This document shows positions 11,249-38,426 of a stretch of 64,000 bases of DNA, in pieces (within the stretch, counting starts at the first letter, position 1; each line of letters opens with the position of its first letter). The notes beneath the pieces were generated by a model that had not been told where the DNA came from, did not search any database, and saw only the letters and a program-made list of their open reading frames with translations. The translations under genes and the position numbers were made by a program. Source of the DNA: a virus; IMG/VR virus record IMGVR_UViG_3300017991_000009, positions 1 to 64,000 of that record, one strand, 5' to 3'.

Positions 11249-13510
11249 ATGAGGGACAGACAGTTGGTAAGGTTATTCATCGAAAGCGGCATTCGAATCA
11301 GGTGTAGGGAGCTACCCAAGGAAGTTCTGAAGGAGCTTGCACGCAAAACCACCTACACCGACCCCGTTTACATCAAACGCAGGAAGATGCACCAGGACAC
11401 GGGTGACCTCACCCTGAGAATCAAGACCCACCAGAAGGACCAGCAGTACATCTGGTTTTGGAGGGGCGCCCTGGGCAAGGTTGTGAGGGTTCTGAAGTCC
11501 CACGGCCTCAAGTACGAGGTGGTTGACCAGCGGCTTTGGCTGCCGAAAGTCGACCTCGCGTGCAGCGTAAAGCTCCGCGACTACCAGGAAGCACCTGTTG
11601 CTAAGATGGTTCGCCGGCACCAGACGATCGGCAGGGGCCCGGCCGGGAGCGGTAAGACAGAGATGCTCCTGTCTGTTATCTCCCACTTCAAGCAACCAGC
11701 CTTGGTGCTGGTGTGGAAGGAGAGCCAGCAACGCACCTGGTTGGAGCGCATCCCGAAGTACTTCGATATCGAGCCTGGTGGGATTGGTGGTGCGTTCACT
11801 GGCAAGCCCAAGTTCTCCGAGATCACTGTAGGGATGATTCAGTCGGTACGCACCAGGCTGGAGGAGGTGAAGTACAGGTTCGGCACGGTGGTGTGTGACG
11901 AGGTCTCGAGGTTCGCGGCCCCCACGCTCAGGGAGGTAGTCAACAACATGCCGGCCGCGGTCAGGCTGGGGGCCAGCGATGACGAGCGCAGGTCGGACGA
12001 GAGGGAGTTCCTGCTGTACGACACCTTTGGCCCTAGGGGGTGGAGGCTAGCCGAAGGCAGCGGGCAGTGTGACGTGGAGGTCCTTGCCTACCCCACCAAC
12101 TTTATCTTCGAGGGTGACTACTTCTGGCCCGACCTCATCAAACAATTAACCACCAACAGAGCAAGAAACCAGACCATCATAAGCTTGGCCTGCAACGAGG
12201 CACAGGCGGGTCATCGTGTATTGATATGGAGTGATCGCACCACACACTGCAGGTACCTGAAGGAGGAGATTGAGGCCGCGGGGTTCAAGGCGGGCCTGCT
12301 GTTGGGCGGTCCTACGAACAAGAAGGAGGCGAAGGCAACAGAGAAAGGATTGAGCGACGGAACAGTAGAGATAGGCATCGGCACTTCAGTTGCCGAAGAT
12401 TCGATCAACATCCCACCCCTCGACCGGGGGATCATGACCTGTGCCTCTGCGGACAGGAAGCTGTACCGCTTCAAGCAAATGAGGGGCAGGTTGGCCAGGC
12501 CGTTTGAGGGCAAGCACAGCAGGTTGTATTATCTCTGGGACCGGCGAGTGCCGGTGCTCAAGAGAAAGCTACCACCCATCAGGAAGAGGTACGGTGCAAA
12601 GATACTGTGCCCAACAAAGGAGATGAACATGGCAGAACAAGTAGCAGTGACAACGGAATCCCTCACCAAAGGCTGCAAGGACCTGGGACTGAAGATCCCG
12701 AAGGGTGCGACCCAGCGTACCCTGGAGAAGATCATCCGGCAGGCCTTGAGCAAAGACAAGACCTATGGGTCCTATAGTTGCGGCGCGTGCCGGCGTGACA
12801 TTGTGGACAAGCTGAAGGTCTGCCCCTTCTGCCAGGCAAAGTTCAAGTTCGCCGGCGAGGAGGAGCCCGAAGAGGAGTACGAAGAGGAAGAAGAGGTGAT
12901 GGAGGAGGAAGAGTTCGAGGAGGAGGGCGAGTACGAAGAGGAGCCCGAGGAGGAAGAGGAGCCGGAAGAGGAAGAGGAGCCCGAGGAGGAAGAGGAGGAA
13001 GAAGAGGAAGAGGAGCCCGAGGAAGAGGAGTACGAGGAGGAAGAGGAGGAAGAGGAGGAGCCCGAAGAGCCCGAAGAGGAAGAGGAGGAGGAGTTCGAGG
13101 AGGAGGTAGAGGAGGACGAGTTCGGGGAAGAGCCCGAAGAGGAAGAGGAGGAGCCCGAGCCCCCCAAGAAGGCCCGCAAGAAGCCCACTAAGGCCGCGGC
13201 GAAGCGGAAGAAGGTCTCGGAGGCCGATAAGGCCGCGAAGCGCGAGGAGATCAAGGCGGGGCTCCCCTATAGCAGGGCGCAACTCGAGGAGATGTCTAGA
13301 CCCACGCTGGTGATGATCGCCTCGATCTTGGGCTTCAAGGCCCCGATCAAGCTGGGCTCGAACGAGAAGGTCATCGCCGCGATCCTGAAGGTGGAGGCAA
13401 AGAAGTTCCCCAAGAAGACCGCTGCCAAGAAAGCACCAGCTAAGAAGAAGGCCCCCGCCAAGAAGGCCCCTACCCCCCGGAGGAAGAAGGTTCGCCGTCG
13501 CAGTAGTTAG
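11249..13510 (+). CDS. SF2 DNA helicase with acidic linker and H1-like tail
   Basis: A 753-residue product. Residues 128-137 hold Walker A (GRGPAGSGKT). The Walker B/DEAD-box equivalent reads CDEVSRF near residue 215. Motif VI is about 410 (QMRGRLARPF). A zinc ribbon follows near 510-530 (CGAC, CPFC). This is the UvsW/XPB-like helicase layout, used in recombination or replication restart. Unusual additions are an almost pure Glu stretch (about residues 537-640), a SAP-like segment, and a terminal AKKAPAKK-type basic tail like histone H1. No clear ribosome site precedes ATG 11249, so translation may rely on the untranslated region. Confidence 0.85.
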   Translation: MRDRQLVRLFIESGIRIRCRELPKEVLKELARKTTYTDPVYIKRRKMHQDTGDLTLRIKTHQKDQQYIWFWRGALGKVVRVLKSHGLKYEVVDQRLWLPKVDLACSVKLRDYQEAPVAKMVRRHQTIGRGPAGSGKTEMLLSVISHFKQPALVLVWKESQQRTWLERIPKYFDIEPGGIGGAFTGKPKFSEITVGMIQSVRTRLEEVKYRFGTVVCDEVSRFAAPTLREVVNNMPAAVRLGASDDERRSDEREFLLYDTFGPRGWRLAEGSGQCDVEVLAYPTNFIFEGDYFWPDLIKQLTTNRARNQTIISLACNEAQAGHRVLIWSDRTTHCRYLKEEIEAAGFKAGLLLGGPTNKKEAKATEKGLSDGTVEIGIGTSVAEDSINIPPLDRGIMTCASADRKLYRFKQMRGRLARPFEGKHSRLYYLWDRRVPVLKRKLPPIRKRYGAKILCPTKEMNMAEQVAVTTESLTKGCKDLGLKIPKGATQRTLEKIIRQALSKDKTYGSYSCGACRRDIVDKLKVCPFCQAKFKFAGEEEPEEEYEEEEEVMEEEEFEEEGEYEEEPEEEEEPEEEEEPEEEEEEEEEEEPEEEEYEEEEEEEEEPEEPEEEEEEEFEEEVEEDEFGEEPEEEEEEPEPPKKARKKPTKAAAKRKKVSEADKAAKREEIKAGLPYSRAQLEEMSRPTLVMIASILGFKAPIKLGSNEKVIAAILKVEAKKFPKKTAAKKAPAKKKAPAKKAPTPRRKKVRRRSS
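12858..13165 (+). repeat. Glu-rich low-complexity coding tract
   Basis: About 300 bp of GAG/GAA codons interrupted by CCC, TAC and TTC codons, encoding an acidic linker of about 100 residues in the helicase. Its near-repetitive DNA is prone to slippage, so length may vary between relatives. Confidence 0.9.
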
Positions 13511-13585: not shown

Positions 13586-15343
13586 ATGGAAATCTTGCCC
13601 GAGTTGAAGCAGTATATTTTGCGAAAGAAGTGGAAGTACCGAAACATTAGTGGTGGTAATCTGGCGATCCAGACCTGCCCCTTCTGCGGTAAGTCGAAGT
13701 GGAAGTTCTACATCCACGCCCAGCGTACTATCTATCGGTGCTGGAACTGTGACGCACGGGGCAACCTGTACCGGCTGAAGCGGGAACTAGGGGACCTCCA
13801 GCAGGTGGTGTCGGCAGCCCAGGCCGCTGGCGAGGAGGGTGCTAAGGGCGGGAAGCCGGTACCAATGAAGTACGTGGAGAAGTGGCACCAGCAACTCCTC
13901 CGGAACGAGAGAGCCCTCGAGTATTGCGATAGGAGAGGCTTCGAGTTACAGACCATCAAGAAGTTCAAGCTGGGTCTGCAGAAGAAGCACGGCATTTACT
14001 GGTTAGCGATCCCCCACATCAACGACGGCGTGTGCCACAACGTGAAGTTCAGGAGCTTACCCCCAGCCGAGAAGTCTTTCAGGCGGGTGAAGGGAGCGGC
14101 CTCTGTTCTGTTCAACGCTGACTGCTTGGCGGACTTTGATACGGTGGTGGTCACCGAGTCGGAGACCGACGCGATAGCCCTCTGGCAGGCAGGTGTGCAC
14201 AACGTCATAGGGCTCACAGGAGGAGCAGAAACATTCTTGCCCGAGTGGTACGACGTGTTGGCTGATAAGGAGGATATCACCATTTGCTTGGACGCTGATG
14301 CAGTAGGGCAGAACGGGGCCCGTGCACTAGCCCGTAGGATGGGCTTCGATAAGTGTTACAACGTCCTACTCCCAATGCACGACGCCAACGAGGTGCTGAA
14401 GGTGATGGGCGGGCCGGAGCTAGCCAGGGCGGTACAGCAACGCGAGCAGTTCGAGGTGCACGGGGTGGTTACGGCCGCGGATGCAATGCTCCAGTGCCGC
14501 ACCAGGGCAGAGTTAGGTGACGAGGGCTTCACAACACCCTGGGAGTCCGTGAATCGTCTCCTCGGTCCAGGGTGGCAACCTGGTGACCTGGTGATTCTGA
14601 GTGCCAAGGTGAAGATAGGGAAGACCACGTGGGCACTTAACCAAGGGATACACCTGGCCAAGTTGGGGGAGCCGAGCTTGGTCTACTGCCTGGAGATGAG
14701 CGTAGACAGGTTGGCGGAGAAAGTTGCCGCGGTACTCAGGAAGAAGCCGGTGGACGAGCTTAACCACCTGGACTTCTCCCTGGCGCGGTATAAGCTACGC
14801 CGGCTGCCCCTCTACTTCGTCGAGCCCGACTGGGGCGGCTCCCTAAAGGTTGATGCTGTGTTCGATCGTATCAAGGAGAGCGTGAAGCGGTACGGTATCA
14901 AGTTCCTGATATTCGATCACCTCCACTTCTTGTGCAGGTCGTTGCAATACCTTACGGCCGAGGTAGGCCAAGTAACCAGGGCATTCAAGTTGTTGGCCCA
15001 GGAGATGAATATCGTGGTGTTACTGATCGCCCAGCCGAAGAAGATTCAAGGCGACCGGGTGATCAAGTACGACGACATTAAGGACAGTAGCTCCATCCCA
15101 GCCGACGCCGACCAGATTATCCTGCTGCATAGGCAGGCCCGCCCCGCGTCCCTTGCTGATGGTGGCGATGTATCCAACGAGGACGACAACGAAGTACTAG
15201 ACCCCAAGACGTTAGTACGAATTGACGCCGCACGCTTCCGAGGTGGAGGTCAATCAGTGCTATGGTACGATGGGGCCGGTGCAACGTTTTACTCGATGGA
15301 CGATCGCCCCGGGGCAAAGAAGGAACGCCCGCCCGCTGGATAG
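13586..15343 (+). CDS. DNA primase-helicase (T7 gp4 / Twinkle type)
   Basis: A 585-residue product, ATG 13586 after TAGGAGCC. An N-terminal zinc finger (C31, C34, C52, C55) is followed by a TOPRIM domain (TESETDAIAL near 190; CLDADAVG near 230) for primer synthesis. A RecA-type DnaB helicase domain from about 310 holds a Walker A-like AKVKIGKTT, in which the first Gly is replaced, a Walker B (FLIFDHLHF) and a Gln-containing H4 (LLIAQPKK). It unwinds DNA and primes the lagging strand. A single protein of this kind is usual in phages lacking separate primase and helicase genes. Confidence 0.9.
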   Translation: MEILPELKQYILRKKWKYRNISGGNLAIQTCPFCGKSKWKFYIHAQRTIYRCWNCDARGNLYRLKRELGDLQQVVSAAQAAGEEGAKGGKPVPMKYVEKWHQQLLRNERALEYCDRRGFELQTIKKFKLGLQKKHGIYWLAIPHINDGVCHNVKFRSLPPAEKSFRRVKGAASVLFNADCLADFDTVVVTESETDAIALWQAGVHNVIGLTGGAETFLPEWYDVLADKEDITICLDADAVGQNGARALARRMGFDKCYNVLLPMHDANEVLKVMGGPELARAVQQREQFEVHGVVTAADAMLQCRTRAELGDEGFTTPWESVNRLLGPGWQPGDLVILSAKVKIGKTTWALNQGIHLAKLGEPSLVYCLEMSVDRLAEKVAAVLRKKPVDELNHLDFSLARYKLRRLPLYFVEPDWGGSLKVDAVFDRIKESVKRYGIKFLIFDHLHFLCRSLQYLTAEVGQVTRAFKLLAQEMNIVVLLIAQPKKIQGDRVIKYDDIKDSSSIPADADQIILLHRQARPASLADGGDVSNEDDNEVLDPKTLVRIDAARFRGGGQSVLWYDGAGATFYSMDDRPGAKKERPPAG

Positions 15344-15529: not shown

Positions 15530-15911
15530 AGAATATGGATGCAATACATACCGACATCATGGCAAATAAGGCCCCTCAGCAAGCAAGTGAAACATTGCTT
15601 GGTGGTGTCGCGGGATTCAATGAAATCCCAAGAGAAGGCTCCCGGATACAAGCAATCTTCCGCAATGGCGCATTGTAGCTCCGGGTTGGAATCAAGCTTA
15701 CTTAGCTCTGCTCGCTTTCGATAGCAAGCAGAGCTAGATCGATCATCAAGATCGATTGCTCGAGTGATTCGCGATTCCAAAAAGCTAGATCAAAGCGATT
15801 TAGCGCCGACGGCCAGCAGGTGAAATGATCTGCAAAGCGTAAGCTATGTCTCGCGCTTTTTCTTTGTCTGAATTCCAGACAAGCTCCCAGATTGAAACAC
15901 CGGGAAGGAAG

Positions 15912-15972
15912 TTCACTGAATCGTGAGGAGGTGGTTCCCACGATTCAGTGAACGCACATATGTCACCACCTC
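15912..15972 (+). promoter_or_regulatory. 14-bp hairpin with SD-like loop and adjacent anti-SD
   Basis: TTCACTGAATCGTG (15912-15925) pairs perfectly with CACGATTCAGTGAA (15939-15952). The loop holds AGGAGGTGG. The following ACCACCTC (15965-15972) is complementary to GAGGTGGT in the loop (15928-15935), so a pseudoknot can form. TGTCACC (15961-15967) is also complementary to GGTGACA (16082-16088), the ribosome site of the first gene of the operon. Two exclusive pairings for the same strand look like a switch; this is inference. Confidence 0.55.
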
Positions 15973-15977
15973 ATGGT

Positions 15978-16089
15978 TTGTTGGTGGGGCAGGCGAGGAG
16001 CTTTCGGGTTGTTCGCCTGTCCCTTGATGCCCTTTCGAGTAGAGGGCATCAAGGGGCAATGGAGCCCCCAACAACGTCAGAGGTGACAA
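15978..16089 (+). promoter_or_regulatory. Structured leader A of the multi-copy family
   Basis: Outer stem TTGTTG (15978-15983) with CAACAA (16069-16074). Arms: GGGGCAGGCGA (15986-15996) with TCGCCTGTCCC (16013-16023); TTGATGCCCT (16024-16033) with AGGGCATCAA (16043-16052); GGGGC (16053-16057) with GCCCC (16064-16068) around the hexaloop AATGGA. GAGGTGACA and ATG 16090 follow. The last arm is GGGGC/GCCCC where other copies have GGAGC/GCTCC, a compensatory change. Confidence 0.7.
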
Positions 16090-16305
16090 ATGAAGAACGA
16101 CCCCTTCGATACGACAGGAAAGAAAGCTTGCTCGCACTGCAACGGTTACGGATCTTCGCTCAAGGAGCCTGGCAATCGCTGTTCGGTTTGCAATGGCACG
16201 GGCCTGGTTCCGGATTACGAGCACTGCAAGATCTGCAAGGGCGTGCTTGCTGCCGACCCCGAGAGCGGCGAATTGTACTGCACCGAGTGCGGGAGGGTGC
16301 AGTGA
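16090..16305 (+). CDS. DnaJ-like double zinc-finger protein
   Basis: A 71-residue product, ATG 16090 behind GAGGTGACA of leader A. The Cys pattern CSHCNGYGS, CSVCNGTG, CKICKG, CTECG forms two zinc centres of the CxxCxGxG type seen in DnaJ and in many small phage proteins. It may bind RNA, DNA or a protein partner. First gene of the leader-bearing operon; its stop overlaps the next start (TGATG). Confidence 0.75.
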   Translation: MKNDPFDTTGKKACSHCNGYGSSLKEPGNRCSVCNGTGLVPDYEHCKICKGVLAADPESGELYCTECGRVQ

Positions 16306-16406
16306 TGGATAAGGATAAAGACAAGCTGGACTTTGCGGATTTCATCGGTATCTATATCTCGATCGTGATTCTCATCACGATCGCCGGTCTGCTACGCGGC
16401 TGTTGA
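16305..16406 (+). CDS. 33-residue membrane protein
   Basis: A short gene coupled to the preceding stop. The sequence starts MDKDKDKLDFADF, followed by one hydrophobic helix (IGIYISIVILITIAGLL) and RGC at the end. A single transmembrane span with a charged N-terminus is clear. Its stop is followed directly by leader B. Function unknown; its place beside a MoxR ATPase suggests a membrane anchor or small regulator. Confidence 0.6.
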   Translation: MDKDKDKLDFADFIGIYISIVILITIAGLLRGC

Positions 16407-16478
16407 TTGTTGCTAGGGCTCACCCACTGGGTGGGTCCACTGGAGCAATCAAGCTCCCAACAACGAATGAGGTGACAC
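16407..16478 (+). promoter_or_regulatory. Structured leader B
   Basis: Outer stem TTGTTG (16407-16412) with CAACAA (16458-16463). Variable arm ACCCAC (16422-16427) with GTGGGT (16431-16436). Conserved arm GGAGC (16442-16446) with GCTCC (16453-16457), loop AATCAA. The ribosome site GAGGTGACA leads to ATG 16479. The element starts right after the upstream stop. Confidence 0.75.
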
Positions 16479-17660
16479 ATGACGACAAGAGTGAAGAAGC
16501 AACGCAAGCCCGCTCCCAAGCTGTCGGTGCAGGACAAGCTGACCAAGCTCCGCGAGGAGATGAACGAGGCGCTGGTGGAGAGGACGGACGAGGTAGACGG
16601 CCTCTTGGTGGCCCTGCTGGCCCGGGAGCATATGCTCCTGTTGGGCCCTCCAGGGACGGCTAAGACGCTGATGGTGGAGCTTGCCAGCAAGGCGATCGAC
16701 GGGTCGTCGTATTTTTACTGGTTGATGTCGAGGTTCACGGTGCCCGAAGAGTTGTTCGGGTCGTTCAGCCTGAAGGCCCTCAAGCAGGACAAGCACGAGA
16801 GGGTCACCGGCGGCAAGCTCCCCGAAGCCTCGATCGCGTTCTTGGACGAGGTGTTCAAAGCTAACTCGGCAATCCTTAACAACCTGTTGACGCTGATCAA
16901 CGAGCGAAAATTCCACAACGGCGGCCAGGCACTCGACGTCCCCCTGGAGACGATGGTTGGGGCGAGCAACGAGCTACCAGAATCAGGCGAGTTGGACGCC
17001 CTCTACGATCGCTTCCTGCTGCGCTACTGGACTTCGTACATATCAGACCGCGGGGCGTTCAAGGATATGTTGATGAACGGCGAGCCGATGATCTCCACAA
17101 CGCTGACGATGGCGGAGCTACAGGCTGCGCAGGAAGAGGCCGACCAGGTGGTCATCACCGAGGACATCCTCGACCTTCTGGTTGAGGTAAAGCAGGCTAT
17201 CGAGAAGGCGGGCTTTCTATGCAGTGACAGGCGATGGGTCAAGTGCTTGTGCCTGCTGCAGGCACACGCTTACCTGAACGGTCGGAGCGAGGTGACGGAA
17301 GAGGACCTGATGCTACTTCGTCACATCCTCTGGAAGGAGCCGAAGGACAGAGGGGAACTGGGACGGGTGATCGCGAAGGTAGCTAACCCGCTGGCGCACG
17401 AGTGCCAGGTTATCCTGGATGCGTGCAAGGAGACGTACAGGGAGATCCCCTTCAACGAGCAAGTGGAGGAAAGCAGGTCGGCAGAGGTCTTCACCCAGGT
17501 AGTGGAGGCCAACGGGCAGTTCAAGCAGGCGGTGGAGAAGTTGAAGAAGCTTGCTAACGGCAAGCGGAGCGGGGTGGTGGAGAGTGCGGTTGACGAGATC
17601 GAAACCATGATGACCGAGGCCGGCCGGTTTGCTGGCAAGGTCAGCGGGCTTTCTATCTAG
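16479..17660 (+). CDS. MoxR/RavA-type AAA+ ATPase
   Basis: A 393-residue product. Walker A GPPGTAKT is at 56-63, Walker B FLDEVF at 121-126, sensor-1 Asn at 164 (GASNE), and arginine-finger-like YDRF near 176-179. These are hallmarks of the MoxR branch, whose hexamers remodel protein targets together with a VWA-domain partner. Such a partner is encoded two genes downstream (18973). The N-terminal 12 residues are basic. Lys/Arg-rich helices after residue 280 probably form the lid and partner contact. Translation is probably governed by leader B. Confidence 0.9.
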   Translation: MTTRVKKQRKPAPKLSVQDKLTKLREEMNEALVERTDEVDGLLVALLAREHMLLLGPPGTAKTLMVELASKAIDGSSYFYWLMSRFTVPEELFGSFSLKALKQDKHERVTGGKLPEASIAFLDEVFKANSAILNNLLTLINERKFHNGGQALDVPLETMVGASNELPESGELDALYDRFLLRYWTSYISDRGAFKDMLMNGEPMISTTLTMAELQAAQEEADQVVITEDILDLLVEVKQAIEKAGFLCSDRRWVKCLCLLQAHAYLNGRSEVTEEDLMLLRHILWKEPKDRGELGRVIAKVANPLAHECQVILDACKETYREIPFNEQVEESRSAEVFTQVVEANGQFKQAVEKLKKLANGKRSGVVESAVDEIETMMTEAGRFAGKVSGLSI

Positions 17661-17667
17661 GTACCAA

Positions 17668-17743
17668 TGTTGCAACCTGGCCCTTCAGAAGAGGGGCCAG
17701 TGTGGAGCAGTGGTGCTCCAACCAACCCAACAGGAGGTGACAC
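17668..17743 (+). promoter_or_regulatory. Structured leader C
   Basis: Outer TGTTG (17668-17672) can pair with CAACA (17728-17732) or a nearer CAAC. Variable arm CTGGCCCTTC (17677-17686) with GAGGGGCCAG (17691-17700), loop AGAA, with one G-T pair. Conserved arm GGAGC (17704-17708) with GCTCC (17715-17719), loop AGTGGT. AGGAGGTGACAC leads to ATG 17744. Confidence 0.7.
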
Positions 17744-18895
17744 ATGGCAACGAAAGCACAGTCAGAGATCAACCGTATCGCGAAGGCTATGGCCAGCACG
17801 GACGCGCCCCACATCGGCAGTATCTGTATGTGGACGCTTACGGGCTGCAGGATCAACCGAGACGACTTGATCAAGCTGTACAAGAAGCACGGCCTGGACG
17901 AGGCTTGGTTGCCCCCAGAGATTGAGGGCAGCGTGGCCTTCACTAAGGCTTTGCGATGGGCGCAGCGTGGCGATCGGCAGGGCTACATGATTCGGCCGAT
18001 CGACGACACCAAAGAGGCAATCATCGTGGGCATTGTGAAGGAGGACGTGGACAAGCCGAAGGAAGACCTGGCCTACGGCGTCGAGGCGAAAGTGAAGTAC
18101 AACAAGGAGCACGAGTCGGTGCAGGTAACTGATTCAAAGCACCCCCTGGCAGGTCGCATCAAGGCCTTGTTCACGGAGATGCAGGAGGCGTACATCGGCC
18201 GGGACTTCACGAGGATGCTCACCAGGAACATTGCCAAGCGGATGGGGTCTATCTGTTTGCGGCACACGGGTGGCGTCTACTTCGTTCCTGTACATCACAC
18301 CGAGACACTGCTGAAACACAGGGCGGTGATGTCGGAAATCGGCGCCGAGTTCTCGGTGCTGCCGGTATATGGGAACGACCTCTCCAAGGAGGACCTGGGG
18401 AAGCAGGCGCGACGCGCGTTGGAAGAGGAGATCAAAGAGGTGGAGGCGGAGATCCAGAAGTTCAAGGAGACCGCCCCGCGCGGCGATACCCTCAAACGCC
18501 GGCTGGAGGAGTTCAAGGAGTTGAAGAAGCGGGCGCAAATGTACGCCCAACTTCTCCAGATCAAAGTGGTCGACATCAACCAGGGGCTGGGGGACTGCGA
18601 AAAGCAGATCAAGGCAATCCTGGGTGTAGTCGAGAAGGAGAAGGGTGAGAAGAAGGGCCGCCGGCGTAAGACGGAGAAGAAGGATACGGAAGCGGTGCCG
18701 AAGGTCAAGAACGTAGTGAAGTCCAGGAAGAAGGCTCCAGCGAAGAAGGCAACGAAGAAAACCCCCGCCAAGAAAGCACCGGCAAAGAAGGCGCCGAAGA
18801 AGAAAGTCCCCGCCAAGAAGAAGGCGCCAGCCAAGGCCAAGGAAGAAGTGATCTCTGATACCGGCAAGGTGAAGATCGTGAAGGTGAAGAAGTAG
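17744..18895 (+). CDS. Lysine-tailed protein between MoxR and VWA genes
   Basis: A 383-residue product. Residues 1-210 form a mixed alpha/beta domain (ICMWTLTGCRINRDDL, FVPVHHTETLLKH) that I do not firmly recognise; it recalls phage proteins annotated as DUF6744. Residues about 215-285 are a coiled coil. Residues about 300-370 are an AKKAPAKK-type basic tail like histone H1, similar to the tail of the helicase at 11249. Its position between the ATPase and its VWA partner, under leader C, suggests it is a substrate or third subunit of that complex; this is inference. Confidence 0.65.
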   Translation: MATKAQSEINRIAKAMASTDAPHIGSICMWTLTGCRINRDDLIKLYKKHGLDEAWLPPEIEGSVAFTKALRWAQRGDRQGYMIRPIDDTKEAIIVGIVKEDVDKPKEDLAYGVEAKVKYNKEHESVQVTDSKHPLAGRIKALFTEMQEAYIGRDFTRMLTRNIAKRMGSICLRHTGGVYFVPVHHTETLLKHRAVMSEIGAEFSVLPVYGNDLSKEDLGKQARRALEEEIKEVEAEIQKFKETAPRGDTLKRRLEEFKELKKRAQMYAQLLQIKVVDINQGLGDCEKQIKAILGVVEKEKGEKKGRRRKTEKKDTEAVPKVKNVVKSRKKAPAKKATKKTPAKKAPAKKAPKKKVPAKKKAPAKAKEEVISDTGKVKIVKVKK

Positions 18896-18901
18896 CTTGA
18901 G

Positions 18902-18972
18902 TGTTGCTAGAGGGCACCATCTCTGGTGCCCTCACTGGAGCAATCAAGCTCCCAACAACCAGAGGTGACAAT
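18902..18972 (+). promoter_or_regulatory. Structured leader D
   Basis: Outer stem TGTTG (18902-18906) with CAACA (18953-18957). Variable arm GAGGGCACCA (18910-18919) with TGGTGCCCTC (18924-18933), loop TCTC. Conserved arm GGAGC (18937-18941) with GCTCC (18948-18952), loop AATCAA. AGAGGTGACA leads to ATG 18973. A very clean copy: every stem is perfectly paired. Confidence 0.8.
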
Positions 18973-20424
18973 ATGGGCAAATTATCTAGAGAGGACCTGG
19001 TGTACAAGGTATCTCGTTGGCAGCGGTACCTGTACGACAGTGAGCGGGATCATAACAAGGGCCTGCAAGCTGCGGAGAAGGATGGCAGGGGCCGGGCGAA
19101 TCGGTACCCCGACTATCAGCGGGAGTTGTTCTCTAGGCTTTACAACCCGCGCACCAAGAAGTTGGACGAGCCCGCGGCCGACAGTGAGTGGGCCCAGAAG
19201 CTTCACGGGACGGCCGAGGGGGTGCCGGAGTTCAAGGTGCTGCAGGACAGGTGCAAGGGCGACGAGGTTTGGTCTGGGATGGCCACCACCACCCTGAGTA
19301 AGCAGGTGTCGGCCACGATGGAAAAGAGGCAGTCGAAGGAGGACATCCCCGACCTGGAGCGGCGAGTGCAAGGGCTCTCCGACCTGATGTCAAAAGGGGT
19401 GCAGGTGGGTAAGAGGCTGAAGGCTGCCCAGAAGCGGTTGGAGAAGGCGAAGGCTGAGGCACAGGAGATGGCCGAAGGTCTTGACCCGGTAGCTTTGAGG
19501 CAGGCCATCAGGAAGGGGTGCGAGCAGGCGCAGGAAGAGATCGGAGAGATGGATAAGGCAGTTGAGTCGTTCAGCTACGGTACGGAGCCTGGGGCGCCGG
19601 CGAGGCTGGGCAACGCAGAGGCAAAGCGGAAGCTTGCCAAGCGGATCAAGGCGAGCCCCAAGCTTTCCAAGATAGCGGAGCTTGCAGGGCGACTCAGGCG
19701 GGTGGCAGCGGAGAAGCAACGCAGCAAGGCGAGTGACAGCAGGAGCGAGGTCACTGATATTGAGCAGGGCAACGAGATCGATCGCCTGCTCCCCAGCGAG
19801 TTGATGGACTTGCTCAACGGGGGCGGGGGCGAGAGGGAGTTGATGTTCTATTCCCGCTTCTTGGATCGGCAGTGCTTGCAGTACAAGCTGTCGGGCAAGG
19901 AGAAAGAAGGTAGAGGGCCGATCGTCATCTGTATGGACGAGTCGGGCAGCATGGGTGGTGACCGAGAGGTGTGGGCCAAGGCGGTGGCGTTGGCCCTGCT
20001 CGAGGTCGCTAACAGGCAAAAGAGAACGTGGGCGTTTGTTCACTTCGACACCAGAGTGACCCGCACCGATGTGGTGCCCCATGGGAAGATCGACACCGCG
20101 GCCCTGATGGACTGTATGGAGCACTTCAGCGGGGGCGGTACAAGCTTTCAGGCACCGCTAGATCAGGCGGTAGAGATCATCAGAGGCGATAGTGAGATGA
20201 AGAAGGCAGACGTTCTCCTGGTTACCGATGGTTACTGCTCAACCAGCGACGACTGGGACAAGACGTTCGCCAGGAAGAAGGAGGAGTTGTCGTTCCAAGT
20301 GTTCAGCGTGATGGTGGCCATGGGTGGCGGCAGCTATGGGTCGGTGGAGAAGTGGAGCAACCAGATCTTCCCGATCAACGAGTTGCTGGAGGACAAGTTC
20401 CACGATGTGATGTTCAGTGTTTGA
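18973..20424 (+). CDS. VWA-domain protein, ViaA/CoxE-like partner of MoxR
   Basis: A 483-residue product; ATG 18973 chosen because of the leader and ribosome site. The N-terminal 300 residues are helical, with a basic LAGRLRRVAAEKQRSK segment like that of ViaA proteins. The C-terminal VWA domain has a full metal site: D322-E-S-G-S326, T390 (GGGTS) and D419 (VTDG). In characterised systems such as RavA-ViaA the VWA protein couples the ATPase to a client. Paired with 16479 it forms a phage-encoded MoxR-VWA module. Confidence 0.88.
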   Translation: MGKLSREDLVYKVSRWQRYLYDSERDHNKGLQAAEKDGRGRANRYPDYQRELFSRLYNPRTKKLDEPAADSEWAQKLHGTAEGVPEFKVLQDRCKGDEVWSGMATTTLSKQVSATMEKRQSKEDIPDLERRVQGLSDLMSKGVQVGKRLKAAQKRLEKAKAEAQEMAEGLDPVALRQAIRKGCEQAQEEIGEMDKAVESFSYGTEPGAPARLGNAEAKRKLAKRIKASPKLSKIAELAGRLRRVAAEKQRSKASDSRSEVTDIEQGNEIDRLLPSELMDLLNGGGGERELMFYSRFLDRQCLQYKLSGKEKEGRGPIVICMDESGSMGGDREVWAKAVALALLEVANRQKRTWAFVHFDTRVTRTDVVPHGKIDTAALMDCMEHFSGGGTSFQAPLDQAVEIIRGDSEMKKADVLLVTDGYCSTSDDWDKTFARKKEELSFQVFSVMVAMGGGSYGSVEKWSNQIFPINELLEDKFHDVMFSV

Positions 20425-20499
20425 TTGTTGCACCCCTGGCCACCACTAGCTGGTGGCCAGTATGGAGCAATCAAGCTCCCGCAAACAGGAGGTGACGAT
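20425..20499 (+). promoter_or_regulatory. Structured leader E
   Basis: Variable arm CTGGCCACCA (20436-20445) with TGGTGGCCAG (20451-20460), loop CTAGC. Conserved arm GGAGC (20464-20468) with GCTCC (20475-20479), loop AATCAA. The outer stem differs: TTGC (20428-20431) with GCAA (20481-20484), or GTTTG (20419-20423) with CAAAC (20482-20486). AGGAGGTGACGAT leads to ATG 20500. Confidence 0.72.
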
Positions 20500-21105
20500 A
20501 TGATGCACCCAACACACAAAGGGTACGTGGTCAACAATTACACTGCACTTGTCAACGAAAAGGGACAAGCGCAGGTAACGCTCCCGAAGGGAAGCCACTT
20601 CGATCTTGAGAAGGGGCAGATCTTCGGGCTCACTGGGGCAATGGCAATCTGGAACGGTGAGCCACCGCCTTGGTGCGCCTCAGTGGTCAGGGTCAAGGGC
20701 GCAACCGAGCCCTGGGCTGATCTGCCGAAGCGGGCCAAGACCGTCCTGTGGTGCAGGGAGGAGCTTCCTGATTCGCTTGCACGCGAGTTGGATTCCCTCT
20801 CAAGGTTCTTTGGGGATGCATGCTTTGACCTGGCGGACAAGTGGACCTACCCGGAGAAGTGGGCAGAGTTGAAAAAGGCTGGTGTGAGGGACATCAAGGG
20901 AGCCCTGGCCGATGAAATCTACAACGACGTGAATGCGGCGGAGGACCTCTTGGGGGACCAAATGCACAACGCCTTCTACTCTTCAGGGAACAAGGACAAG
21001 CTGAACCTCTTGTGGAACAAGGCAGCGAGGTATGTTGCCGACACGCTCCCGCATATCAAGGGCCTGTTTGCTCGCCTCGCTCAAGGGGAGGTGTGCAATG
21101 CCTAG
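20500..21105 (+). CDS. Unknown protein of the MoxR-VWA operon
   Basis: A 201-residue product starting MMHPTHKGYVV; ATG 20500 chosen by the AGGAGG spacing. The N-terminal half is beta-rich (VTLPKGSHFDLEKGQIFGL); the C-terminal half is helical (CREELPDSLARELDSLSRFF). No catalytic motif or membrane segment was seen. It carries leader E, so it shares the regulation of the ATPase and VWA genes and probably belongs to the same process. Confidence 0.65.
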   Translation: MMHPTHKGYVVNNYTALVNEKGQAQVTLPKGSHFDLEKGQIFGLTGAMAIWNGEPPPWCASVVRVKGATEPWADLPKRAKTVLWCREELPDSLARELDSLSRFFGDACFDLADKWTYPEKWAELKKAGVRDIKGALADEIYNDVNAAEDLLGDQMHNAFYSSGNKDKLNLLWNKAARYVADTLPHIKGLFARLAQGEVCNA

Positions 21106-21391
21106 CCGACGATATGTTCCACTGCACGAACACCTTGCGATTGAGTACGCCAAGAACGACCTCGGATATTCCAGCCCGGAGGTCTATGGGAACCAGCTTG
21201 ACCCGCAGGTGAGGGAGATCTCGGCGGTGTGGTTGAGGGATCAAGACAATCCCGACTACGACATTGGGTTGATAGTTCACACCAAGGACGGAGTACTGGA
21301 GGAGTTTGACCCAGCTATCGACGGGAAGCCCGGTGAGTTACAATCAGGTAGTAACTGCGACTTATCGCGGATGCGGATGGAGGTATACTAA
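21098..21391 (+). CDS. Small unknown protein
   Basis: A 97-residue product overlapping the preceding gene by 8 bp, with AGGGGAGGTG before ATG 21098. A mixed alpha/beta sequence with no recognised motif. Its end overlaps the next start (TAATG), so the three genes 20500-21582 are translationally coupled. Confidence 0.6.
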   Translation: MPSRRYVPLHEHLAIEYAKNDLGYSSPEVYGNQLDPQVREISAVWLRDQDNPDYDIGLIVHTKDGVLEEFDPAIDGKPGELQSGSNCDLSRMRMEVY

Positions 21392-21582
21392 TGGATCCGG
21401 ATGCGAACCTGAAGGAGCAGTTACAACTTGCTGCCGCGCTTGAGGACGTGGACTACGATCAACTGGACGAGAACTCGAAGGAGGCGGCCATCTCAGATGC
21501 CTGCCGCTTGGCCGAGCTTGTCCTGGCCCTCGACGAGTGGATCTCAAAGGGTGGGTTCCTGCCCAAGCTTTGGAGTAGGTGA
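21391..21582 (+). CDS. Small acidic helical protein
   Basis: A 63-residue product, ATG 21391 sharing its first base with the preceding TAA. Asp/Glu/Leu-rich and probably a helical bundle (KEQLQLAAALEDVDYDQL). No family is recognised. Leader F begins directly after its stop. Confidence 0.6.
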   Translation: MDPDANLKEQLQLAAALEDVDYDQLDENSKEAAISDACRLAELVLALDEWISKGGFLPKLWSR

Positions 21583-21583
21583 G

Positions 21584-21672
21584 TGTTGCTCGAGGTCGTT
21601 AGCTTATCGTACTCTGATAAGCTAACGGTCTCCCTGGAGCACTTACGCTCCCAACAACGAAAGAGGTGGCAT
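21584..21672 (+). promoter_or_regulatory. Structured leader F, which contains the stop-codon hairpin
   Basis: Outer stem TGTTG (21584-21588) with CAACA (21652-21656). The variable arm is long: 21592-21608 with 21616-21632, and its inner part is the TTAGCTTATC/GATAAGCTAA hairpin found at four other loci. Conserved arm GGAGC (21636-21640) with GCTCC (21647-21651), loop ACTTAC. AGAGGTGGC leads to ATG 21673. Two repeat families meet in this copy. Confidence 0.75.
21598..21626 (+). repeat. Stop-codon hairpin family, copy 2 (inside leader F)
   Basis: GTTAGCTTATC (21598-21608) pairs with GATAAGCTAAC (21616-21626), loop of 7 nt. This is the only copy not placed on a stop codon; the upstream stop is 16 nt earlier. 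Confidence 0.85.
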
Positions 21673-21963: not shown

Positions 21964-22166
21964 AGGGCGAAGTGATCTACAGGGCCCCTGAAGGCGGAGG
22001 GGTCTGCCCCTCCTGTGAGGCTGTGATGGAGGTGTACTTCACCTTCAAACCTGGTACCACGCACAAGTCGATCAAACAGTTTGAGATAGACAACACCATA
22101 CACATGAAAGCGATCGGCGAGGTGGCGAGGTGCAGGAACTGCGGGTACTCCGAGAGGCGAGGGTAG
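21960..22166 (+). CDS. Small zinc-ribbon protein
   Basis: A 68-residue product coupled to the previous gene. Two CxxC pairs (CPSC near residue 16, CRNC near residue 58) would bind one zinc. Last gene before a terminator-like hairpin, so it probably closes the MoxR-VWA operon. Confidence 0.65.
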   Translation: MKGEVIYRAPEGGGVCPSCEAVMEVYFTFKPGTTHKSIKQFEIDNTIHMKAIGEVARCRNCGYSERRG

Positions 22167-22167
22167 C

Positions 22168-22223
22168 CAGCACTGCTTGATCTCCTGAGTGAGTAGGCTC
22201 GGGGGATCGCTGGAGTGCTGGGC
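22168..22223 (+). other. Long imperfect hairpin after the operon
   Basis: CCAGCACT just after the stop pairs with AGTGCTGG near 22212-22219. Inside, CCTGAG and CTCGGG also pair. It precedes the terminator-like hairpin below and may be an RNA-processing or 3'-protecting structure. Confidence 0.45.
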
Positions 22224-22247
22224 CCGTCACCTCCCCGGCAGACTCCC

Positions 22248-22298
22248 AGCAACCCCAGGAAACGGTAATGGTGTACGCCCTGGGGTTGCTGTATTTTG
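22248..22298 (+). terminator. Probable transcription terminator
   Basis: AGCAACCCCAGG (22248-22259) pairs perfectly with CCTGGGGTTGCT (22279-22290), then GTATTTTG. The 19-nt loop is long and the U-tract is short, but the GC-rich stem at the end of an operon fits termination. Confidence 0.65.
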
Positions 22299-23805: not shown

Positions 23806-26487
23806 GTGGCAAATGTGAAAGTGAAAGCGAAGGCTCAGCCAGAGCCGACAATCCAACGGCCCCTGAAGAGAAACCCCGACTGCACGCGATGCAAGCTCGG
23901 AGAGACGAGTCAAACTGTTTGCTGCAGGTCAGTAGGCCCCAAGCGCCCAGATATCATGTTGGTCGGAGAGGCCCTTGGAGCGAACGAGGAGATTCATTGC
24001 AGGCCTTTTGTTGGTGACGCCGGCCGCAAGCTGAACTACCTGTTGTCGAAGGCGAAGCTTAGACGCAAACGCCTCCGCATACGCAACACGGTTAGTTGCC
24101 GACCCCCAGGCAACGCTGCCCCCTCAAAGACGATCATCGAAGCGTGTTACCCGTACCTTTGGCACGACATCCTGGTTTCCAAGCCGAAGGTGATCGTTGC
24201 CTTGGGAAGCGTTGCTTACCGCGCCCTGGGTGCCTCGGTAGATGTGAAGGGTAAGCTCAAGATGGACACGCGCGGGGTCACTGACTGGCGCGGGTTCTAC
24301 GAGCAACGAACCATCATGTGGGACGCCCCGAACGGGAAGCACTACGAGCACACGTTCTGGATCGTCCCCACCTTCCATCCATCGGCCTGCCTTCGCAACT
24401 GGGAGAAGGACGACCTCCTCGTCCACGACCTGAAGATCGCCAAGGACCTCTCCGAGGGAAAGCAACCGCTGAAGTATCCAGACACCAAGGTAACCGTCAT
24501 CAAGACCAAGGAGGAGGCTATCCGCTTCCTGCGCCACCTGCGGAAGGTTGGTGCATTCGTAGTTGACTTAGAGACTGCAGGCTCCCCTGCTCGGCCGCAG
24601 GAAGCCCTCGACCCGCACCGTGCAAAGATCATGTGTGCGGGTTTTTGCTATCGGGATGGGCACGCGACTATCCTCCCCTTCTACCGGCAGAACCTGAAAC
24701 CCTACTGGACGCCGCGGGAGCGGAACGAGATCATCGAGGAGTTCACTGGGCTACTGGAGCACGCCAAGCTCTACGGGCAGAACATCAAGTTCGACATCAA
24801 ACACCTCCGAAAGCTCACCGGCTTGGTCGACTACAAGATCGGCTTTGACACGATGATCGCTCATCACGTGGTGGATGAGAACAAGCCGCATAACCTAACC
24901 TTCCTCTGCCAGTGGTACCTTCGTTGGTGGAAGTACGACTCGGCCCTCGACCAGTTCAAGTTCAGCAAGGGCAAGAAGACCATGTTCCGAGTCGACCTGG
25001 TCCCCGACCAGATGTTGTGGAACTACTGCGGGTATGACGTCGATGGCACCTGGAGACTCAGGCGCAAGCTGATCCCCCTCATCAACGAGGAGAAGGTAGC
25101 CAAGCCCTTTAGGGTGGAGCTTGACCTCACCGTCCCGCTGGCCGACGTGGAGTTCCGCGGGCTGCAGGGTGACAGGGCAAGGCTCCTGCAGTTGTCCGCG
25201 GTGTACCGCAAGCAGTCAGCGGCGATCGTCAAGAAGCTCCAGACGAGCGCGGTGAAGCTTCTGGGGGTGCGTAAGGTGAAGGGCAAGATAGAGCCCTTCA
25301 ACCCCAACAGCCCCAAGCAACTCACCGAGCTACTCAAGACCGCCGGCGCCGATCTCAGGAAGACCACCAAAGGGGGGAGCCTCGCCGTTGACAAGTACGT
25401 CCTAGCTGCACTTGCACTGAAGAAGAACAAGGCAGGCACTATCGCCAAGAACGTGCAGGAGCTACGCCGCTTGGGGAAGTACATCTCTACCTACCTGGAT
25501 GGCAAGGACGGTGACGAGGGGTTCCTGCAGTACATGGGAGAAGGTGACCGTTGGCACCCGACCTACAATATCACCAACGCTAGGACGCCCAGGCTGTCCG
25601 CTGATGACCCGGCGATCCAGACCGTCCCGCGTCTAATGGTGCTGCGGTCGATGGTTATCCCTGACAACGAGGAGTGCATGCTCATCGCGGTGGATTACGA
25701 GAAGATCGAGTTGTGCGTCATGTCGTGGTTGGCCAACGATGAGGTAATGGTGCAGGAGCTACTCGATAGGGTTGACCTGCACACCAAGATGGGCGTCACG
25801 GCGCGGTTGATGCGGAACCCCACGGACGAGGAGTTCAAGCGGATCGCTCCGATGATAAGTAAGGACGAGCGGGCCGTTGCAAAGGGCGTGAACTTCGGTA
25901 TTCCATATGGCCGCGGTGCTTATGCTATCGCCGAGGCGAACCCTGACGCCTTCCCAGGCACGATGCCAAAGAACGAGCGAACCGAGACGGTACAGAAGGT
26001 GATCAACGCCTTCTTTGAGAAGTACTGGGGCATCACGGAATACCGGGAGCGGGTTGTCCAACGGCTTGAGGACAACGGGCAACTCCGAGAGTACATGTTC
26101 CATCGGCTGCGCCGGTTACCGGCTGTCGATTGGTACAACTCGAAGTGGGGGATGGACACCGACCGCAGGGATGCTGACTTCGGGCACCTGAAGAGGGAGG
26201 CCCTCAACTTCGAGATTCAGGCATTGGCCACGCAGATACTGAACATGAAAACGAAGGTGGTCTATGATGGTATCCAAAAGGTGCGGATACCTGGCCTGCG
26301 TATCAACCAGAGCCTTCACGATGCTTTGATGTTCAACTGTAACCGCGCATACACCGACGAGGCCGTGCACCACATTACGGAGTGGATGGAGACGTCCTTG
26401 CCGAAAGATCGCAGGCACAAGTTTGAGATGCCCCTGAAGGTAGAGGCGCTGGTTCAGAACTACTGGGGAGAGGAATACTCCGCATAA
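23806..26487 (+). CDS. DNA polymerase: UDG-like domain, 3'-5' exonuclease, family A polymerase
   Basis: An 893-residue product from GTG 23806. Residues 20-215 match family-4 uracil-DNA glycosylase: iron-sulphur Cys C26, C29, C98, C114; GEALG at 54-58; GRPFVG-like RPFVGDAG at 66-73; HPS at 191-193. A DEDD exonuclease starts at D254/E256 (VVDLETAG). Polymerase motifs follow: A (DYEKIELCVMSW), B (RAVAKGVNFGIPYGR), C (QSLHDALMF, with Ala where HDE has Glu). SPO1-group polymerases also carry an N-terminal UDG-like domain, and they copy DNA with modified thymine. Whether this domain is active is not shown by sequence alone. Confidence 0.9.
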   Translation: MANVKVKAKAQPEPTIQRPLKRNPDCTRCKLGETSQTVCCRSVGPKRPDIMLVGEALGANEEIHCRPFVGDAGRKLNYLLSKAKLRRKRLRIRNTVSCRPPGNAAPSKTIIEACYPYLWHDILVSKPKVIVALGSVAYRALGASVDVKGKLKMDTRGVTDWRGFYEQRTIMWDAPNGKHYEHTFWIVPTFHPSACLRNWEKDDLLVHDLKIAKDLSEGKQPLKYPDTKVTVIKTKEEAIRFLRHLRKVGAFVVDLETAGSPARPQEALDPHRAKIMCAGFCYRDGHATILPFYRQNLKPYWTPRERNEIIEEFTGLLEHAKLYGQNIKFDIKHLRKLTGLVDYKIGFDTMIAHHVVDENKPHNLTFLCQWYLRWWKYDSALDQFKFSKGKKTMFRVDLVPDQMLWNYCGYDVDGTWRLRRKLIPLINEEKVAKPFRVELDLTVPLADVEFRGLQGDRARLLQLSAVYRKQSAAIVKKLQTSAVKLLGVRKVKGKIEPFNPNSPKQLTELLKTAGADLRKTTKGGSLAVDKYVLAALALKKNKAGTIAKNVQELRRLGKYISTYLDGKDGDEGFLQYMGEGDRWHPTYNITNARTPRLSADDPAIQTVPRLMVLRSMVIPDNEECMLIAVDYEKIELCVMSWLANDEVMVQELLDRVDLHTKMGVTARLMRNPTDEEFKRIAPMISKDERAVAKGVNFGIPYGRGAYAIAEANPDAFPGTMPKNERTETVQKVINAFFEKYWGITEYRERVVQRLEDNGQLREYMFHRLRRLPAVDWYNSKWGMDTDRRDADFGHLKREALNFEIQALATQILNMKTKVVYDGIQKVRIPGLRINQSLHDALMFNCNRAYTDEAVHHITEWMETSLPKDRRHKFEMPLKVEALVQNYWGEEYSA

Positions 26488-28189: not shown

Positions 28190-29721
28190 GACGCAGGCTT
28201 CTCGTCGACGTGTCGGGGCTAGCCTACGCGGCGGCTTACAAGGTGGACCTCTCCTACAAGGGGAAGAAGGTCAACGTCGTGTACGGCGTCCTGCGCACCC
28301 TGGAGAAGCTAGCCGAGAGCCTGGAACCCGAGGAGATGATCCTGTGCTTTGATGGTGGGAGTGAACTGCGGAAGGAGATCTATCCCGAGTACAAAGAGAA
28401 CAGGAAGAAGAATCCCAAGCATGAAGAGATGCGTCGAGAGGTCGCCCGGCAGCTACCCGTACTGCGGGGCATCCTCGACGCGCTCCCCGTGCTCCAGGTG
28501 CAGAAGGACGGATACGAGGCTGACGACCTAGTAGAGGCGATAGCCTCGTTCCTGCACCTGGAGCACGTGGGCATCGTGACAAAGGACCAGGACCTCTACC
28601 AGCTAGCAGAACCACCGAGGTGCGTCATATTCAACAAAGAGGGGGGCGAGGAGAAGTTGGCCCTGCGCCCCAAGCAATACATCACCTACAAGGTCTTGGT
28701 GGGTGACACGTCCGACAACATCAAGGGCGTGGATCAGATCGGCCCTGTCAACGCAGGGAAGCTGATCAAGCGGTTCAAGACCCTCAAGGGCATCATGGCT
28801 CATGCGAAGGAAGAGGGGAAGCTAGGGGCGATGCCTTACAAACAGGCCCTTACGAGAGTGCGGCGGAACCTCAAGCTTGTGCGGCTTGGTGACATCTTGA
28901 CAGGCGACGATCGGTCCTCAGTCGTGAAGAGTTATGCTCGGGCCCGCCTACTCAGGGGGACCAACAAAAAGTTACTGAGGGAGAGGCTGTTAGAGGTGGG
29001 TTTCTCCTCGTTCGTGTCGCGACTGTCGCGACTGATCACAACCTTCAAGTGCATGGAACGCACACCCAGGACGGCGCCTAATGAAGCGAAAGCGGACCAC
29101 CACAATAGTGAGGAACGTGGTGAGCGAAAGCGAAAAGCGGTATCCCATCGTCAGGAAGGTGGAGGGTACACCAGGATCATCGTTAAGGTGGTCGAAAGCA
29201 AAAGAAGCTGCCGAGAGGATCAAGGGTCTAAGCGAAGACCCGCCCAGGGCCCGCGCTACGCTCGCCGTATACGAAAGAAAGCACCTGTGGGCATGGCTCC
29301 ATCAGGCAAGCGACGAGGTGATAAGAGAGCTACTCGATCAGATAGCGGGGAAGGATCAGACGGCAGCGACAAGCGAGCTACGGTGGAAAAATGGCGTTGC
29401 AGAACTAAGGCATTTGCTAAGCGACTATCTTCTTCGCCGGAAGTACTACAGCGAGGGGAGCTACGGCGCCGGCAAGCCCTGTTCCTTCTGCAAGCTTTTC
29501 ACCAAAACGACGAAGGATGGGGATGGCTCCGACGACAATCAAGAAGGCGACTCGAGTTCGTGAGTTCGATGATCTCGGCGCTCGATAGCGATCCGGAGTA
29601 CGCCCCCGACAAGAAGGCGCTTGCCTTCCTGGAGAAGTTGAAGAACGACTACGCTTCTGAGATGCCTGATTGGATGCTAACCGACGAGGAGATCGAGGAG
29701 CGGCACGTAGATAGCCGATAG
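28186..29721 (+). CDS. 5'-3' exonuclease (FEN/PIN type); reading frame runs on past the domain
   Basis: A 511-codon frame. Residues 1-290 are a FEN/T4 RNaseH-type nuclease: LLVDVSGLAY (first Asp), FDGG, YEADDLVEAIA, TKDQDLYQL, GDTSDNIKGV and a helix-hairpin-helix, ending near GFSSFV. It removes primers or degrades host DNA. After about residue 297 the frame runs through the gene at 29081-29563, where its codons look unlike coding (many CGA, AGC), yet no stop appears until 29721. Either the protein has a long odd tail or a frameshift ends it at TAA 29079-29081. Confidence 0.75.
   Translation: MRRRLLVDVSGLAYAAAYKVDLSYKGKKVNVVYGVLRTLEKLAESLEPEEMILCFDGGSELRKEIYPEYKENRKKNPKHEEMRREVARQLPVLRGILDALPVLQVQKDGYEADDLVEAIASFLHLEHVGIVTKDQDLYQLAEPPRCVIFNKEGGEEKLALRPKQYITYKVLVGDTSDNIKGVDQIGPVNAGKLIKRFKTLKGIMAHAKEEGKLGAMPYKQALTRVRRNLKLVRLGDILTGDDRSSVVKSYARARLLRGTNKKLLRERLLEVGFSSFVSRLSRLITTFKCMERTPRTAPNEAKADHHNSEERGERKRKAVSHRQEGGGYTRIIVKVVESKRSCREDQGSKRRPAQGPRYARRIRKKAPVGMAPSGKRRGDKRATRSDSGEGSDGSDKRATVEKWRCRTKAFAKRLSSSPEVLQRGELRRRQALFLLQAFHQNDEGWGWLRRQSRRRLEFVSSMISALDSDPEYAPDKKALAFLEKLKNDYASEMPDWMLTDEEIEERHVDSR
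29081..29563 (+). CDS. Unknown 160-residue protein in an alternate frame
   Basis: ATG 29081 lies in TAATG. Codon choice (AGG, AAG, GAG, CTA) resembles the rest of the genome better than the overlapping exonuclease frame. The middle is helical (KEAAERIKGLSEDPPRARA, LDQIAGKD). A CSFC pair is near residue 140. Ends Ser/Asp-rich. No family is recognised. Confidence 0.65.
   Translation: MKRKRTTTIVRNVVSESEKRYPIVRKVEGTPGSSLRWSKAKEAAERIKGLSEDPPRARATLAVYERKHLWAWLHQASDEVIRELLDQIAGKDQTAATSELRWKNGVAELRHLLSDYLLRRKYYSEGSYGAGKPCSFCKLFTKTTKDGDGSDDNQEGDSSS
29569..29721 (+). CDS. Possible 50-residue protein
   Basis: ATG 29569 in the exonuclease frame begins MISALDSDPEYAPDKK and the codons regain coding character to the stop at 29721. 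It may be a separate small gene or the true C-terminus of a read-through exonuclease. The ribosome site is poor. A stop-codon hairpin sits on its end. Confidence 0.4.
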   Translation: MISALDSDPEYAPDKKALAFLEKLKNDYASEMPDWMLTDEEIEERHVDSR

Positions 29722-37654: not shown

Positions 37655-38426
37655 GATTATACGCAACGTCGTTACACTAAGGAGACCAACAGCGATAGTT
37701 GGGATTGACCCGTCTCTCCGCGGCCACGCCATGGCGCTTGTCCTCAACGACCGAGTGAAGGCGGTTATGGGGTGGACTGACAAGAAGACGTTACAGAGGA
37801 GGAACCCCGACACGCTCTGTTGGTTCAAGATGAGGGTGAACACGGACAGGGATCAGCAACACAGGTGCGCCCTCCTGTCCCGTTGGACGATCGCTAACAT
37901 CGCCGAGCTAGTCGGCGACTGTGTGGTGCACGTTGCGATGGAGGGTTACGCCTTCTCTAAGAACGACCGAGGGAACACCGGCATCCACGAGTTGTGTGGT
38001 GCGATCAAGCTGGGGCTATGGCACATGGGCATCCCTCTCCGAATCTACGACCCCTTGTCGGTCAAGTTGGCCTGGACCAACAACGGCCACGCAGACAAGG
38101 AAGAGATGAAGGAGGCATGCCTCAAGCTGTTCGGTTGGGACTTCGAGCGGCAGGGCTCCGCCGGCGCGGACCTGGCCGACGCGGTGTTGATAGCCAACTT
38201 ACTGCACGTGGAGCTAGAAGTGAGGGCAGGGAGGATTCAACTAGAAGAACTGCGGCCGAGCCTCAGACGGGTGCTACTCCGGGTTACCAAGAGTGAGCCC
38301 GAGGCGTTGATCACGCGGCCGTTTATCCATCCTGATGAAGTGGAACCCCCCGCGCCGATCTTGGGCGGGCCGGCCGAAAGTCGACTGCTAGGGCCAAGCT
38401 TTGGTACGATACCTGGCAGGAGGTAA
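37644..38426 (+). CDS. RuvC-like Holliday junction resolvase
   Basis: A 260-residue product from GTG 37644. The RNase H-fold acidic residues are in the expected order: D22 (VGIDPSLRG), E100 (HVAMEGYAF) and D176/D179 (GADLADA). It would resolve recombination or packaging junctions made by the RecA-like protein and SbcCD. The C-terminal 70 residues, Pro/Arg-rich, are extra to a minimal RuvC. Confidence 0.85.
   Translation: MHTRIIRNVVTLRRPTAIVGIDPSLRGHAMALVLNDRVKAVMGWTDKKTLQRRNPDTLCWFKMRVNTDRDQQHRCALLSRWTIANIAELVGDCVVHVAMEGYAFSKNDRGNTGIHELCGAIKLGLWHMGIPLRIYDPLSVKLAWTNNGHADKEEMKEACLKLFGWDFERQGSAGADLADAVLIANLLHVELEVRAGRIQLEELRPSLRRVLLRVTKSEPEALITRPFIHPDEVEPPAPILGGPAESRLLGPSFGTIPGRR

Follow-up and report, generated by a model that had tools for sequence, protein, structure and literature searches.

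Phages frequently carry natural self-cleaving ribozymes, whose role there is largely open. The tendency of ribozymes to cluster with one another and with phage genes led to the discovery of the pistol ribozyme (PMC4604425). Structures of other kinds also act in messenger RNA: repetitive extragenic palindromic (REP) elements stabilise mRNA and, where they lie no more than 15 nt from a stop codon, cause ribosomes to stall (PMC12306157); the T4 gene 32 mRNA carries a single pseudoknot in its leader, which binds gp32 and serves as an operator (PMC3014915), and pseudoknots likewise act in initiation that depends on upstream translation (PMC6728339). In this work we have analysed a stretch of 64,000 nucleotides (the window, positions 1 to 64,000 of the virus record IMGVR_UViG_3300017991_000009, 95,166 bases in total) and describe a pseudoknotted RNA element which is conserved and repeated at the stop codons of single phage operons. 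In the window it is found in an operon located at 16.0-22.3 kb, encoding a small zinc-ribbon protein, a short open reading frame (ORF), a bpMoxR ATPase, a DUF6744 protein, a VWA protein and several small gene products.

Conserved fold and covariation

An initial annotation of the window had reported six structured elements in this operon as a six-copy family. All six (A-F, Table 1) are present, lie between genes (A ahead of the first gene), and fold more stably than their dinucleotide shuffles (z -2.3 to -6.8), but only B-F are members of one family. Element A has a CAACAACG..GAGGTGAC leader in front of the operon. It is similar to the 3′ half of the family members but is excluded since it has no 5′ strand of helix H1 and is matched by neither of the two covariance models, R1 and R2; a further copy, element G, had been overlooked. 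Relatives were reached by means of a structural descriptor, sequence patterns and neighbouring proteins. With model R1, for which B, D and a copy of the phage G004 were used, additional G004 copies were revealed, as well as four in a further phage, G005. Searching phage sequences with a covariance model had been proposed in the initial annotation; model R2, built from 15 copies, identified about 21 in seven virus records, with several copies per operon.

The fold supported by covariation is centred on a 7-bp helix, H1, which usually includes the stop codon; one of its strands is the 'loop' of the GGAGC arm, which is complementary to the 5′ edge of the element. The GGAGC-N6-GCTCC hairpin described previously does exist, but its N6 is not a free loop, being the 3′ strand of H1. 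The arm H2, mostly of 8-13 bp, is inserted between the two sides of an internal loop and its sequence is free, in agreement with the earlier observation of arms of unrelated sequence with near-perfect pairing. In most copies a pseudoknot, H3, is formed across H1 between the GGAG of the internal loop and a CUCC located just after H1; H3 is well formed in the family of the window. The internal loop (UGC / URGAR) is near-invariant among 21 copies: U9 is found in 20, G10 in all and C11 in 19 of them, and the other side reads U, G/A, G (21/21), A (20/21), G/A. The A4-U pair is invariant in the same copies.

Covariation was assessed on three alignments. In a gapless alignment of 16 members with the arm excised, some of them chosen by an H1 criterion, both-sided changes were found at six of the seven H1 pairs and three of the four H3 pairs (GGAG/CUCC), 93.2% of cells were paired, and the covariation was 0.567 as compared with 0.07-0.15 when the partners were slid (0/500 shuffles equal). 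Because these members had in part been selected using H1, the test was redone on the nine copies found without a pseudoknot criterion; changes on both sides were again present at 5/7 H1 and 2/4 H3 pairs, with 90.9% of cells paired and none of 500 shuffles reaching the observed value. The 15-copy alignment, which was fitted to the covariance model and hence leans towards structure, gave both-sided changes at 16 of the 17 H1/H2 pairs, 96.8% of paired cells and a score of 0.938 (at most 0.16 with slid partners). The exchange within H1 is illustrated by elements B (TTGATTG/CAATCAA) and F (GTGAGTG/CACTTAC) and by the distant phage G004, which has TTAATTA/TAATTAA at these positions, with two full G-C to A-U swaps. 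The elements thus constitute a real, previously undescribed RNA family with strong covariation, and the view that structure rather than sequence is conserved held after homologues had been added.

The initial annotation had drawn a different fold, in which TTGTTG/CAACAA closes a three-way junction and the whole forms an intercistronic leader that could set stoichiometry. The TTGTTG/CAACAA match is present in A and B and roughly in D and F; its pairs show no both-sided changes and up to 10 of the 16 members are unpaired at one of them, while H1, which uses an overlapping strand, is strongly supported. The proposed junction is not the conserved fold, and we consider such a leader highly improbable.

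The initial annotation had named no riboswitch or phage RNA with its junction, and in Rfam 15 a matching family is absent. At gathering score no match was found in the window (twister, hammerhead, pistol, hatchet, HDV-like and others included), the elements themselves gave only chance microRNA matches at E up to 5, and in the element-bearing loci of G001, G003, G004 and G005 matches were located only outside the elements. Pistol is similar in forming a pseudoknot via a hairpin loop, in its approximately ten conserved nucleotides and in its association with phages (PMC4604425), but it differs in the order of helices, since in the family described here the strand that pairs is located 5′ to the arm. 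Neither an HDV-like nor a permuted-pistol topology fitted when compared manually.

Anchoring on the stop codon

Among the 21 copies for which an upstream ORF could be assigned, 16 have the stop codon at positions 2-4 of H1, which explains the invariant A4; in the remaining copies it lies 0-7 nt before H1. Altogether 20 of the 21 overlap the stop codon or start no more than 2 nt after it, and one starts 7 nt after it. Shared descent adds to this count, yet UGA and UAA both occur and the H1 sequences differ. In the window operon one element is present in each gap between non-overlapping genes and none where genes overlap. The Shine-Dalgarno (SD) sites of the GAGGTGAC type noted earlier in the elements are indeed present, and in most copies an AUG follows 14-23 nt past the end of the model. 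Two copies, element G and the fourth copy of G005, have no downstream gene start; each follows the last gene and is itself followed by a terminator-like inverted repeat. The designation 'intercistronic leader' is therefore correct as to the location between genes but incomplete, since the stop codon of the upstream gene is the anchor of the element; given the copies after last genes, the element is no less a trailer of the upstream gene than a leader of the next one.

The elements do not have the form of intrinsic terminators, i.e. a GC-rich hairpin with a U run, as they are followed by CAAC and the SD, and none of A-G appeared among the terminator-like sequences listed. A signal for stop-codon readthrough was rejected, because the reading frame that continues past the stop does not consistently lead into the following gene (elements B, C, D and E inspected by eye).

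The location within 15 nt of the stop codon, between genes and in multiple copies, is shared with the palindromic REP elements. A REP-like, non-catalytic element would slow or block terminating ribosomes and/or shield mRNA 3′ ends from exonucleases, tuning the output of each cistron, and it would suit a structure that begins at the stop codon, has its arm H2 about 9 nt beyond and occurs after last genes as well. We nevertheless regard this as rather unlikely, as protection of the 3′ end is already provided for at the last-gene copy of the window by a terminator-like hairpin, the near-invariance of the internal loop exceeds the needs of a roadblock or an exonuclease barrier, and the sharing of slots with ribozymes (see below) would be left unexplained. 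REPs conserve their palindromic sequence, whereas here the arms share pairing and not sequence, the conserved loop is non-palindromic and a pseudoknot is formed.

An operator is the other non-catalytic possibility: the pseudoknot would be read by an RNA-binding protein of the phage or its host, or by translation upstream of it, and the translation of the downstream genes would be co-regulated. The concentration of copies in one operon per phage speaks for it, as does the position of the AUG in most copies, just beyond the 30S footprint. With element G and the fourth G005 copy lacking a gene to regulate, the first gene of the operon lacking an element with H1, and the SD unpaired in the conserved fold, this seems to us distinctly unlikely. 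The T4 gene 32 pseudoknot is similarly located in a phage mRNA outside the coding sequence, but it is a single copy, in contrast to the many copies at stop codons found here.

Known ribozymes in sister phages and a candidate processing role

Known self-cleaving ribozymes are placed equivalently to the elements in two sister phages. The G003 operon carrying the family also contains two type-P5 twister ribozymes, of which the first starts two bases after a stop codon and the second begins inside a TAG stop codon, and G004 contains a type II hammerhead ribozyme; each is followed by an SD and a gene, the hammerhead ending 14 nt before the ATG. The two twisters have a common core and wholly different arms, as do the copies of the element. 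Twister-P5 (RF02684) is alike in size, in its hypervariable hairpin arm and in its position between stop codon and SD, but its core (GCAGA..UAAUGC..CAAG..GUCC) differs and its model does not match the family. Hammerhead type II (RF02276) lies directly ahead of the SD and ATG at equal spacing, unlike the family in having the CUGAUGAG and GAAA core and a three-way catalytic junction.

Among the functions suggested in the initial annotation, a processing site is favoured because the equivalent gaps of sister phages are occupied by self-cleaving ribozymes of known type. We propose, with a probability of about 0.45, that the family is an mRNA processing element embedded at the stop codon, most likely an undescribed self-cleaving ribozyme; that it shares its role with the twister and hammerhead ribozymes of the sister phages is likewise possible, and put forward tentatively. 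The size of about 65 nt, the pseudoknot and the roughly ten conserved loop nucleotides fit a small-ribozyme class. As in ribozymes, a conserved structure is combined with a near-invariant unpaired core, and proximity to known ribozymes or to their usual phage neighbourhood, a supportive rather than defining trait, was also found.

An element at each non-overlapping stop codon would separate the cistrons by processing the message there, most probably through self-cleavage, and every gene would thereby acquire a separate 3′ end, located at its stop codon, and a structured 5′ leader of its own before the SD site. Judging from the general size of the ribosome footprint, a ribosome terminating at the stop would cover H1 and the UGC loop and reach the base of the arm. 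As the stop codon lies inside H1, such a ribosome should melt this helix, so folding and action would be confined to the intervals between ribosomes.

Several points weigh against a ribozyme. The case for cleavage is one of association, and a cleavage site cannot be named. Ten ribozyme-associated motifs in one study failed to cleave (PMC10085705), and base rates are modest. A recognised ribozyme was found in only two of the seven phages (in the stretches scanned), while other G003 gaps and the relative L069 hold unclassified hairpins, so that the slots may tolerate any compact structure. Finally, some copies have a weak H3 or none: in G005 it shrinks to UGG/CCA or AUAG/CUAU, and element G has a minimal one.

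Features of the locus, distribution and significance

Model R2 detected six copies in the window phage (including G), three in G001, four to five in G003, two in G004, four in G005 and one each in L292 and G295, in genomes ranging from 36% to 67% GC. An extra G003 copy at 33240, with a wholly different H3, was seen by the descriptor only and is less certain; the loose descriptor gave many chance matches in GC-rich DNA, and covariance models were used instead. About 4 Mb of other DNA scanned with the covariance model gave weak matches only (E ~0.3). No match was obtained in 284 host genomes of one phylum and six others, but this search went through a fast filter that scores few candidates and is therefore uninformative. 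Patterns resembling the DNA of element B gave no convincing copy in bacterial genomes.

Table 1 Positions of the elements, neighbouring genes and related ribozymes (window coordinates unless a contig is named; E values of the elements are for model R2)
Feature	Position	Strand	Details
Element A	15978..16092	+	two long arms, GGGGC-AATGGA-GCCCC hairpin; fold z -6.8
Element B	16403..16462	+	74.6 bits, E 8e-16; stop TGA 16404-16406 inside H1; H1 strands 16403-16409 (TTGATTG) and 16446-16452 (CAATCAA); H2 16416-16425/16429-16438; GGAG 16442-16445; CTCC 16454-16457
bpMoxR AAA ATPase gene	16479..17660	+	PF20030, 2e-58; flanked by B and C
Element C	17663..17724	+	E 5e-10; H1 ACCAATG/CAGTGGT, one mismatch; starts 2 nt past stop TAG 17658-17660 of the bpMoxR gene
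DUF6744 gene	17744..18895	+	PF20529, 4e-26; flanked by C and D
Element D	18897..18957	+	E 8e-16; H1 TTGAGTG/CAATCAA, one mismatch; starts 1 nt past stop TAG 18893-18895 of the DUF6744 gene
VWA-domain gene	18973..20424	+	PF05762, PF13519; flanked by D and E
Element E	20421..20484	+	E 7e-12; H1 TTGATTG/CAATCAA, containing stop TGA 20422-20424 of the VWA gene
Element F	21579..21656	+	E 1.5e-12; 18-bp arm; H1 contains stop TGA 21580-21582 of the preceding gene
Element G (new copy)	22166..22229	+	E 5e-6; H1 CCAGCAC/GTGCTGG; adjoins stop TAG 22164-22166 of the last gene of the operon
Terminator-like hairpin	22247..22297	+	CAGCAACCCCAGG/CCTGGGGTTGCTG then TATTTT; from folding; ends the operon after G
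Type-P5 twister ribozymes (two)	L242 11066-11009 and 10248-10191	-	Rfam gathering score; phage G003
Type II hammerhead ribozyme	L538 5287-5355	+	Rfam gathering score; phage G004

The order bpMoxR-DUF6744-VWA is kept in G005, with copies after DUF6744 and VWA as for D and E, and in G001, where all three kinds of gene occur (MoxR-like, VWA-like and DUF6744), copies precede the MoxR-like and DUF6744 genes; the G001 gaps at 37854 and 38490 contain a GG..CC hairpin without H1. Co-occurrence of MoxR, DUF6744 and VWA genes in element-carrying phages was observed at 16479-20424 of the window, L464:7989-11908 and L064 9839-13365 (-). An obligate link to MoxR was rejected, as most of the collected MoxR phage loci have no copy, and so was a link to the downstream gene in G003, whose relatives in other phages lack the element.

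Other structures were noted in these loci. A perfect 15-bp inverted repeat GTTCACTGAATCGTG/CACGATTCAGTGAAC lies directly upstream of element A (15911-15953) and may be an operator or a terminator, and the hairpin ending the operon was not among the window hits of the terminator scan. In the MoxR-operon relative L069, two long single hairpins with differing but paired arms are located between stop codon and SD (13045-13110 and 13670-13730); they are outside the element family and have no Rfam match. Reverse-strand gaps of G003 near 29112 and 33763 (in L242) contain another short structured type, unclassified, ending CCUGGGAAA(C/U)UUAUGA ahead of the SD. Further along the window a family A DNA polymerase gene (23806-26487) also encodes a uracil-DNA-glycosylase-superfamily domain near the N terminus of the protein (Pfam).

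Equivalent gaps of phage operons are thus occupied by known ribozymes and by a covarying RNA family whose fold incorporates the stop codon, which makes the punctuation of polycistronic mRNA by ribozymes directly testable. The candidate new ribozyme class comes with about 21 natural variants; if it should prove non-catalytic, it would still be a new stop-codon-anchored RNA family, absent from Rfam.

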